Shown piece after piece: positions 18,712-58,098 of a stretch of 64,000 nt of DNA. The stretch is from Zwartia panacis (lineage in GTDB: Bacteria; Pseudomonadota; Gammaproteobacteria; Burkholderiales; Burkholderiaceae_B). Each line of letters opens with the position of its first letter. Position 1 is the first letter of the stretch. A program made the translations under genes and the position numbers. The notes under the pieces are model-generated. The model was given only the letters and a program-made list of their open reading frames with translations. It did not search any database and had not been told where the DNA came from. The stretch lies in assembly GCF_030410395.1 (NCBI RefSeq), contig NZ_JAUHHF010000004.1:124001-188000 (forward strand), written 5' to 3'.

Positions 18712-20316
18712 TCAGCCCTCAATCCCTTTGGAGGCGAGATATTCTTCGTAAGGACCTCGATAGTCTGTGACCTGCCCCGTTGGCTGAATTTCCCAAACAC
18801 GCGTTGCAAGCGCTGAGACGAACTCACGATCATGGGAAACAAAAAACAAAGTTCCAGGGTACTTGTCGAGCGCAAGCTGCAAAGACTCGATGGACTCCAT
18901 ATCCAGGTGATTTGTTGGCTCATCGAGCAGCATGACATTGTGTTTTCTAAGCATCAATCGACCAAAAGTCATGCGATTTTTTTCACCCCCGGAGAGCACG
19001 TTAGGTGACTTTGGTAAATCATCCGCCGAAAACAATAACCGCCCTAGAACCGAACGAATCGACTGATCATCGTCCGTTGGTTGGCGGTAATGCGTCATCC
19101 ATTCGAACAAATTACTGTCTTTATCCATAAAGAGCTCTGAAACATCCTGAGCCATGTAGCCCAAATCAGCATTTTCAGACCACTTCACAGTTCCGCGATC
19201 AGGCGCCAAATCAAGCGCAAGCATGCGCAATAGCGTTGTCTTACCTGCACCGTTGGCACCAATGATGGCTATTTTCTCTCCGGCCTCGACCATCGCGGAA
19301 AACGGACGAATCACGGGTGCATCAAAACTTTTTTCCACTGATTCAAGCGTGACAGCCTGTCGATGAAGCACTTTAAGTTGTTCAAAGCGAATAAACGGGT
19401 TTTGTCGCGAAGAAGGCTTGACCTCGATTTGAGCGGATTTGATGCGATCAATCTGCTTGAGACGCGAGGTCGCTTGGCGTGCTTTGGATTTGTTTGCAGA
19501 AAAGCGACGGACAAAATCCTGCAACTCACTGACGCGCTCCTTTGCCTTGGCATTAGCATTTGAGACGCGCTCTCTGGCTTGCGTAGAGGCAAGCATGTAA
19601 TCATCGTAATTGCCAGGATAGACACGCAACTCCCCAAAATCCAAGTCTGCCATGTGTGTGCATACTTGATTCAGAAAGTGACGATCATGGCTAATAATGA
19701 TCATTGTGCTTTGATAGCCATTCAGAACATTTTCAAGCCAGCGAATCGTGTTGATATCCAGGTTGTTTGTCGGTTCATCCAGTAACAGTACATCCGGATT
19801 TGAAAACAAGGCTTGTGCCAACAGCACGCGGAGTTTCCAGCCAGGCGCGATTTCACGCATAGGCAATTGATGTTGTTCGACAGGAAACTCAAGACCCAGC
19901 AATAGTTCACCTGCACGCGCCTCGGCAGTGTAACCATCGTATTCAGCAAACTTAGCCTCAAGATCTGCGGCACGCATATAGTCCTCATCCGAAGACTCGG
20001 CGTTTGCATAGATCGCATCTCGCTGGGACATCGCCTCCCACATTTCTGTATGCCCCATCAGCACGACATCCAAAACACGGTAGTCTTCGAAAGCGAACTG
20101 ATCCTGACGCAACTTGCCCAGGCGAAGACCCGGCTCCAAGAAAACGTTACCGGCAGTCGACTCAAGATCGCCACCAATGATTTTCATCAGAGTCGATTTG
20201 CCTGAACCGTTCGCGCCAATCAAACCATAGCGATTTCCCTCCCCGAATTTGACATTGACGTTTTCAAATAAAGGTTTGGGTCCGAACTGAATAGCTAAGT
20301 TTGAAGCAGTTATCAC
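18712..20316 (-). CDS. ybiT: ABC-F ATPase YbiT
   Basis: This 534-residue soluble protein has two ABC domains: Walker [10 protein letters not shown] near residue 35 and GANGAGKTT in the second half, Walker [12 protein letters not shown] and [11 protein letters not shown], the degenerate first signature APGWK typical of YbiT, the second signature LSGGEKNR, and the interdomain linker with [14 protein letters not shown] and [16 protein letters not shown] proteins act on ribosomes as translation factors. The start is GTG 20316, without a clear Shine-Dalgarno sequence. Its first 187 codons and upstream region are repeated exactly 818 bp away, where the second copy is truncated; this copy is intact. 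Confidence 0.93.
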
Positions 20317-20573
20317 GGTAGGCTACTTTAGTAAATAAGGGAGTTACATCTTGATAGATATGTTTTCAGTGTAACAACACGGGCAAAACCGCCCTTTTTA
20401 AATCCTCCATCCCTATGATGCGCAGGGTCAGCAACCAAGCTGAACTCAATGACACAATGCGAGGAGAAAAAGTTGGAACAACTCACTATTTTATTTCATA
20501 CCCTTGGTGGTTTCGTTTGGGGCCCCATTCTGCTGGTTTTATTGGTCGGAACCGGGATTTACCTCACACTCAG
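19756..20573. repeat. Copy 1 of a perfect 818-bp tandem duplication
   Basis: This unit holds the first 187 codons of ybiT (minus strand), the ybiT-symporter intergenic region and the first 34 codons of the symporter gene (plus strand). It is identical, base for base as far as I could compare, to 20574-21391. The intact ybiT uses the promoter region in this copy; the symporter start in this copy is broken at the junction. Confidence 0.97.
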
Positions 20574-20688
20574 ATCCAGGTTGTTTGTCGGTTCATCCAG
20601 TAACAGTACATCCGGATTTGAAAACAAGGCTTGTGCCAACAGCACGCGGAGTTTCCAGCCAGGCGCGATTTCACGCATAGGCAATTGA
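20473..20688 (+). pseudogene. Truncated 5' copy of the Na+:alanine/glycine symporter gene
   Basis: The TTG start, GAGGAG ribosome site and first 34 codons equal those of the intact gene at 21291. At 20573 the frame runs into the repeated ybiT antisense sequence and ends at 20688, so the predicted product has 71 residues, half of them unrelated to any symporter. It contains one membrane segment. It overlaps the truncated ybiT copy tail to tail. Confidence 0.9.
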
Positions 20689-21134
20689 TGTTGTTCGACA
20701 GGAAACTCAAGACCCAGCAATAGTTCACCTGCACGCGCCTCGGCAGTGTAACCATCGTATTCAGCAAACTTAGCCTCAAGATCTGCGGCACGCATATAGT
20801 CCTCATCCGAAGACTCGGCGTTTGCATAGATCGCATCTCGCTGGGACATCGCCTCCCACATTTCTGTATGCCCCATCAGCACGACATCCAAAACACGGTA
20901 GTCTTCGAAAGCGAACTGATCCTGACGCAACTTGCCCAGGCGAAGACCCGGCTCCAAGAAAACGTTACCGGCAGTCGACTCAAGATCGCCACCAATGATT
21001 TTCATCAGAGTCGATTTGCCTGAACCGTTCGCGCCAATCAAACCATAGCGATTTCCCTCCCCGAATTTGACATTGACGTTTTCAAATAAAGGTTTGGGTC
21101 CGAACTGAATAGCTAAGTTTGAAGCAGTTATCAC
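20559..21134 (-). pseudogene. Truncated copy of ybiT (N-terminal ABC domain only)
   Basis: Starting at the same GTG context as intact ybiT, this frame encodes the first 187 residues of YbiT, through Walker A and Walker B ([11 protein letters not shown]), then four junction residues (LSVR) and a stop. It lacks the rest of domain 1 and all of domain 2, so it cannot form the paired ATP sites of an ABC-F protein. Its upstream region is an intact copy, so it could be transcribed. Confidence 0.93.
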
Positions 21135-21391
21135 GGTAGGCTACTTTAGTAAATAAGGGAGTTACATCTTGATAGATATGTTTTCAGTGTAACAACACGG
21201 GCAAAACCGCCCTTTTTAAATCCTCCATCCCTATGATGCGCAGGGTCAGCAACCAAGCTGAACTCAATGACACAATGCGAGGAGAAAAAGTTGGAACAAC
21301 TCACTATTTTATTTCATACCCTTGGTGGTTTCGTTTGGGGCCCCATTCTGCTGGTTTTATTGGTCGGAACCGGGATTTACCTCACACTCAG
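20574..21391. repeat. Copy 2 of the perfect 818-bp tandem duplication
   Basis: Direct repeat of 19756-20573 with no spacer. The breakpoints share only one ambiguous base, so no homologous repeat flanks the event. The intact symporter gene starts in this copy at 21291, while the ybiT copy in it is truncated. Confidence 0.97.
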
Positions 21392-22628
21392 ACTCGGCGC
21401 ACTCCAAATACGACTATTGCCCGTCGCGCTTCACATGGCGTTCTCAAGGGACAGAAACTCCAACTTGCCTGGCGATATTTCTCAATTTCAATCGCTCATG
21501 ACTGCGCTGGCTGCCACCATTGGCACAGGCAACATTGCGGGAGTGGCCACCGCTGTTGTTCTCGGCGGACCGGGAGCGCTCTTTTGGATGTGGGTCAGTG
21601 CCTTTTTTGGTATGGCCACCAAATATGCCGAAGGTCTACTCGCAGTGAAATACAGGGTAAAAGAACCAGACGGTACGATGTCGGGCGGTCCGATGTATTA
21701 CATTTCCCTCGGTTTGAAAATGAAATGGCTCGGCATGTCTTTCGCAGTATTTGGGATGATTGCCGCGCTTGGAACAGGTGCTTCGGTCCAATCCAACTCT
21801 CTTGCCCAGTCCATGCAGGCAAGTTTTGGGGTTTCCGGCTGGTTAACGGGGGTTGTGCTGACAGGGGTCACCGCATTAGTCATTTTGGGTGGCATCAAAA
21901 GTATCGGACGCGTGACTGCCGTGATTGTTCCGTTTATGGCTGCTATTTACCTCTTGGGTGGACTCGCCGTCATCCTCAGCAATATCGAAGGCCTCTGGCC
22001 CGCGCTTAAACTCATTATGACGGACGCCTTCACAGGATCAGCTGTCGCAGGTGGTGCAATCGGCACCATGATTCGCTACGGGGTTGCGAGAGGCGTATTT
22101 TCAAACGAAGCGGGCTTGGGCACAGCTCCTATCGCCGCAGCGGCGGCCAAAACCGACCAACCTGTCAAACAAGCCCTCGTCTCCATGACCGGGACTTTTA
22201 TCGATACCATTATTGTGTGCTCGATCACAGGAATCGTATTGGTCATGGGAGGACAGTTTACGTCTGGGGTCACGGGCGCTGCGCTCACAGCCCAAACTTT
22301 CGAGCAGATGCTTCCTGGACCGGGCGGATGGATTGTCACGATCGGCTTAATATTTTTTGCGTATTCGACGATACTTGGGTGGAGCTATTACGGGGAAAAG
22401 TGCGCACAATACGCTTTAGGTCAACGCATCATTTGGCCATACCGATGCTTGTATACAGCGTTTGTCATGATCGGAACCGTGGTCTCGCTTGATCTGGTCT
22501 GGGCCGTGTCGGATGTTGTGAATGGTTTGATGGCGTTTCCAAATCTGATCGGTATTGTGCTGCTCTCAGGCGTAGTGATTAAAGAAACTCAAGATTATCT
22601 GGCTAGTGAAAAAAACAATAAAAATTAA
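21291..22628 (+). CDS. Alanine/glycine:cation symporter family (AAC/AGCS) protein
   Basis: A 445-residue inner-membrane symporter with about ten segments. The AGCS family imports alanine or glycine with Na+ or H+. Visible motifs include [23 protein letters not shown] at the N terminus, the family signature region ALAATIGTGNIAGVATA, GGPGALFWMW, and GVARGVFSNEAGLGTAPIAAAAAKT. The start is placed at TTG 21291, five nt after GAGGAG and matching the family N terminus; ATG 21267 would add eight residues and lacks a ribosome site. Its first 34 codons are in repeat copy 2. Its end overlaps ldcA by 4 bp tail to tail. No glycine riboswitch was recognised upstream. Confidence 0.92.
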   Translation: MEQLTILFHTLGGFVWGPILLVLLVGTGIYLTLRLGALQIRLLPVALHMAFSRDRNSNLPGDISQFQSLMTALAATIGTGNIAGVATAVVLGGPGALFWMWVSAFFGMATKYAEGLLAVKYRVKEPDGTMSGGPMYYISLGLKMKWLGMSFAVFGMIAALGTGASVQSNSLAQSMQASFGVSGWLTGVVLTGVTALVILGGIKSIGRVTAVIVPFMAAIYLLGGLAVILSNIEGLWPALKLIMTDAFTGSAVAGGAIGTMIRYGVARGVFSNEAGLGTAPIAAAAAKTDQPVKQALVSMTGTFIDTIIVCSITGIVLVMGGQFTSGVTGAALTAQTFEQMLPGPGGWIVTIGLIFFAYSTILGWSYYGEKCAQYALGQRIIWPYRCLYTAFVMIGTVVSLDLVWAVSDVVNGLMAFPNLIGIVLLSGVVIKETQDYLASEKNNKN

Positions 22629-57197: not shown

Positions 57198-57217
57198 TGC
57201 TGTATATAAAAACAGCA
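57198..57217. promoter_or_regulatory. LexA (SOS) box upstream of lexA
   Basis: TGCTGTATATAAAAACAGCA contains CTG-N10-CAG with symmetric flanks, like the E. coli consensus. It should bring about LexA autorepression. A weaker relative, CTG-N10-CAC, is at 57293-57308. Confidence 0.9.
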
Positions 57218-57267
57218 CTGCAAAAAACCACTGCAAAAAACCACTGCAAAAAAGCACCGCAAAAACA
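57216..57267. repeat. 13-bp tandem repeats in the lexA leader
   Basis: CACTGCAAAAAAC at 57216-57228 and 57229-57241, CACTGCAAAAAAG at 57242-57254 and CACCGCAAAAACA at 57255-57267 form four units, beginning inside the LexA box. The A-tracts recur every 13 bp. Confidence 0.93.
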
Positions 57268-58062: not shown

Positions 58063-58098
58063 ACTCAAACTCAAACTCAAACTCAAATTAAAACTCAG
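58063..58098. repeat. Hexanucleotide repeat ACTCAA
   Basis: Four exact ACTCAA units (58063-58086), then ATTAAA and ACTCAG, fill the space between the convergent lexA and hslR stops, immediately after the lexA TGA. Confidence 0.9.

Follow-up and report, generated by a model that had tools for sequence, protein, structure and literature searches.

A perfect 818-bp repeat that lies head-to-tail across a divergent gene pair in a draft contig raises the question of whether the duplication exists in the cells, how it arose and whether it has a function. The repeat was examined within the window, that is, the whole 64-kb stretch of DNA analysed. Exact self-comparison showed that 19756-20573 and 20574-21391 are identical at 818/818 bases in head-to-tail arrangement, in agreement with the perfect tandem repeat claimed in the original prediction, and chance cannot yield an exact repeat of 818 nt. 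The equality at offset 818 spans 819 bases, so that the joint is ambiguous by 1 base, the A at 20574. No other exact direct repeat of at least 30 nt exists in the window, which contains no N. Contig C44 of the organism's own genome carries the two copies (143756-144573 and 144574-145391), and the sole further match of the unit in that genome (E 0.001) was a 31-nt segment on contig C53. The locus thus has the form of a spontaneous tandem duplication, with two adjoining copies in the same orientation and one novel joint. A megablast search of E. coli genomes gave no match. Two short tandem arrays also occur in the window, at 57209-57265 (13-nt unit CACTGCAAAAAAC) and at 58063-58097 (6-nt unit ACTCAA). 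The features of the locus are as follows.

19756-20573, no strand: copy 1 of the 818-bp unit (exact self-comparison)
20574-21391, no strand: copy 2 of the unit, matching copy 1 at every base (exact self-comparison)
20573-20574, no strand: novel joint between the copies, with 1-bp ambiguity (A) (self-comparison)
18712-20316, minus strand: intact ABC-F ATPase gene of the ybiT type, 534 aa, with its 5' part in copy 1 (ORF, NF011646)
20559-21134, minus strand: truncated ybiT, 191 aa, comprising 187 native codons and 4 past the joint (ORF)
21267-22628, plus strand: intact gene for a sodium:alanine symporter (AgcS), 453 aa, with its 5' part in copy 2 (ORF, profiles)
20449-20688, plus strand: truncated symporter ORF, 79 aa, entering antisense ybiT (ORF)
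20317-20448, no strand: divergent intergenic region, copy 1, facing intact ybiT (ORF limits, sequence)
21135-21266, no strand: divergent intergenic region, copy 2, facing the intact symporter gene (ORF limits, copy identity)

The two outer ORFs span nearly the whole length of their family profiles. The product of 18712-20316 matched NCBIfam NF011646 'ABC-F family ATPase' with 933 bits (cut-off 762) and the broader NF000355 with 388 bits, barely over the cut-off of 380; the name ybiT follows the original prediction. The symporter matched PF01235 with 486 bits and TIGR00835 with 520 bits (cut-off 273). At the joint the two inner ORFs, of 191 and 79 aa, overlap by their 3' ends, and neither Pfam nor NCBIfam gave a match to the 79-aa ORF at E 0.001. 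Within the unit lie 187 ybiT codons, the intergenic region of 132 bp and, when the ATG at 20449 is taken as the start, 125 nt of the symporter ORF. The 187 codons are those originally predicted (20316 down to 19756, 561 nt), whereas the 34 symporter codons given there hold for a start at TTG 20473, the last codon being incomplete, but not for the ATG at 20449, from which the unit holds 41 codons and 2 nt. Both are candidate starts of the symporter gene, and the TTG has a GAGGAG a few bases upstream (20449-20475; 21267-21293 in copy 2). The ORF limits also bear out that each copy keeps one gene intact, ybiT through copy 1 and the symporter gene through copy 2. This integrity of the outer genes requires no selection, because any tandem duplication that ends in two divergent genes has the same outcome. 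A terminator-like stem was noted on the minus strand at 20381-20394 (also 21199-21212), upstream of ybiT; one such stem was found against a shuffle mean of 0.3, and as this is an odd spot for a terminator it may be due to chance.

The region was searched for in 41 genomes, comprising the organism's own genome, 24 from its genus and 16 from its order. Matches were obtained in 36 of the 41, including every one of the 24 genus members; those in 11 order-level genomes were only partial and were left out of the copy count. When queried with the single-copy form, 23 of the 24 same-genus genomes proved to carry the region in single copy, the form that the original prediction had proposed to look for, while the 24th (G020) has its parts on different contigs and is undecidable. 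Among the 23, 21 align unbroken over both breakpoints, and the other two (G003 and G023) are single-copy through two collinear pieces with a spacing about as expected. The two closest relatives share 80-81% identity with the region. The nearest named relative among the matches listed (at least 80 loci), a Burkholderiaceae MAG (L024) with 92% protein identity, is single-copy; it is probably the same as G022 (L007), which has the same alignment figures, and was counted once. These same-genus genomes rule out a duplication common to the genus, and because 23 of these 24 have the region once, the duplication is derived in the own genome, the one genome by which the species is represented.

In front of either intact gene lies a complete 132-bp intergenic region of its own, and this arrangement could be taken as selected promoter splitting, in which the duplication is kept since each divergent gene gains its own control region. 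However, the same geometry follows from any tandem duplication ending in two divergent genes, the duplication occurs in none of the 23 decidable same-genus genomes, and a simple scan of 20200-20600 found no sigma-70-like site. We therefore regard promoter splitting as very improbable, and hardly any weight can be given to the fuller version of it, in which transcripts converging from the inner debris would add a further layer of control to the two private control regions. The repeat is most likely a real event of an ordinary kind and bears no sign of function.

The absence of any difference in 818 bp places the divergence of the copies below 0.37% (95%). The original prediction read the lack of divergence as implying a very recent event, but this bound alone is insufficient proof. 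If mutations arise at about 2e-10 per site and generation, it is compatible with an age of as much as some ten million generations, and further age could be hidden by gene conversion between the copies. Tandem repeats of about 818 bp are easily lost, and it is for this reason, rather than from zero divergence, that the duplication is probably young.

Whether the repeat could be a product of the assembly was judged from the contigs of the own genome (54 contigs, 3.34 Mb), of which 24 with readable sequence were compared at their ends and the remaining 30 were assessed by length alone. All exact end overlaps of at least 12 nt among the 24 readable contigs were of 127 nt (5 joins between 7 contigs, both strands considered); the other 17 showed no end overlap. 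In addition, 5 of the 54 contigs are 255 nt long, which equals 2 × 127 + 1. The overlaps and the 255-nt contigs indicate that the assembler was most likely of the de Bruijn type with a final k of 127. According to PMC5481147, k=127 is the upper limit of SPAdes, and we infer that the assembly came from SPAdes with short reads. One contig of 5367 bp (C15, L135/L177) is joined to C44, C5 and C53 through 127-nt overlaps; it is a collapsed repeat, perhaps, at a guess, a ribosomal RNA operon.

This signature bears on the possibility that the chromosome is single-copy and that the stretch was doubled by the assembler or by later gap-filling. The 818 bp exceed the length of short reads, as judged from k=127, so that the two-copy path would have been chosen by the assembler and not directly read, and a joint with chance-level homology is equally expected from an artefact. 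Against this, a k=127 graph collapses overlapping ends rather than doubling them, and the joint is free of N. Furthermore, 125 127-mers are present only when the joint is in the graph. Because identical copies collapse at k=127, yet the joint needs these 125 127-mers of its own, the joint is most likely derived from reads. For it to be false, chimeric reads must be common enough to pass coverage filters. No exact direct repeat of at least 40 nt was found within the 11 readable of 20 sampled stretches (216,613 bp), implying that repeats of this kind are not habitual in the assembly. An unmerged contig overlap is an unlikely source of the repeat: all exact end overlaps between readable contigs (24 of the 54) measure 127 nt, and the window holds no N. 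Taken together, we consider an assembly artefact quite unlikely; the option, already raised in the original prediction, is weakened by the k=127 signature but not removed.

A real duplication need not be uniform. It may be present in part of the culture, or cells may carry more than two copies, and a mixed or amplified state of this kind, which would include the amplification in progress raised in the original prediction, is a variant of a real duplication that is compatible with it rather than exclusive of it. Tandem repeats expand and shrink readily, and a loop in the graph would give the same two-copy contig whatever the copy number or the fraction of cells. Positive evidence for such a state is lacking, and there is no obvious target for selection on dosage, as neither gene is whole within the unit; we hold it to be possible but unlikely.

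From the sequence, it is thus quite likely that the locus represents a real, young, probably neutral, illegitimate tandem duplication of 818 bp in the sequenced culture. The stretch would have been duplicated head-to-tail by illegitimate joining, for example by template switching or sister-chromosome end joining, with its ends joined without meaningful homology. With the breakpoints within two divergent genes, the outer genes would have remained whole, each with its own intergenic copy; the inner gene pieces would be debris, and the duplication would be prone to loss again through recombination between the copies.

The joint was compared with other end pairs 818 bp apart in the window. An ambiguity of at least 1 bp occurs at 43% of them and one of at least 4 bp at 2%, and the 1-bp ambiguity therefore agrees with the original claim that the ends share no useful homology. 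Recombination at short homologies is characterized by about 8-11 bp or more shared at the joint, against the 1 bp found here. A profile search of the own genome for Ku (PF02735) gave no match at E 0.001; in the control search the profile matched 1 of 14 control genomes, that of Bacillus subtilis. Ku-dependent end joining, the classical bacterial NHEJ, is thus unsupported, and template switching or Ku-independent end joining would be the remaining routes. Several other origins were considered and rejected or given less weight. An insertion sequence or transposon is unlikely, as the unit is filled by two gene starts and the intergenic region and its ends have no inverted repeat. Recombination between flanking repeats does not fit either, since there are none at the unit ends. 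Nor does any conspicuous palindrome mark a breakpoint in the list of 23 inverted pairs, which was read without a shuffle control.

If real, the locus captures a homology-free and probably short-lived duplication in a bacterium in which no Ku gene was detected. It also provides a calibrated example of how a perfect tandem repeat in a draft contig can be weighed through the k-mer signature of the assembler and single-copy relatives.

Two known systems can be compared with the repeat. The first is misassembly at repeat resolution, to which most SPAdes misassemblies in simulated tests are traced in PMC5481147, a point that counts for an artefact and against a real duplication. In both, a de Bruijn assembly contains a repeat that exceeds the k-mer; in contrast to such a misassembly, the joint here has 125 k-mers of its own, which, we infer, are unexpected without reads or later gap-filling. 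The second is the spontaneous tandem duplication of bacteria. The Salmonella study of Sun et al. 2012 (PMC3411829) tested 8 duplication joints and confirmed 5, each with at least 11 bp of homology, and the joints with 7, 9 and 17 bp went unconfirmed (Table 1 of that paper); the engineered tandem duplication of PMC11111574 uses 9-bp microhomology borders. The 1 bp at the joint here, against at least 11 bp in the confirmed joints of PMC3411829, speaks against the preferred reading of a real illegitimate duplication. The joint would then be of a homology-free kind unconfirmed in PMC3411829 or, less likely, an artefact. The likeness lies in the head-to-tail form recognised by one novel joint, and the duplications described there were rare variants in chemostat culture, whereas the one described here is the form written in the assembly.
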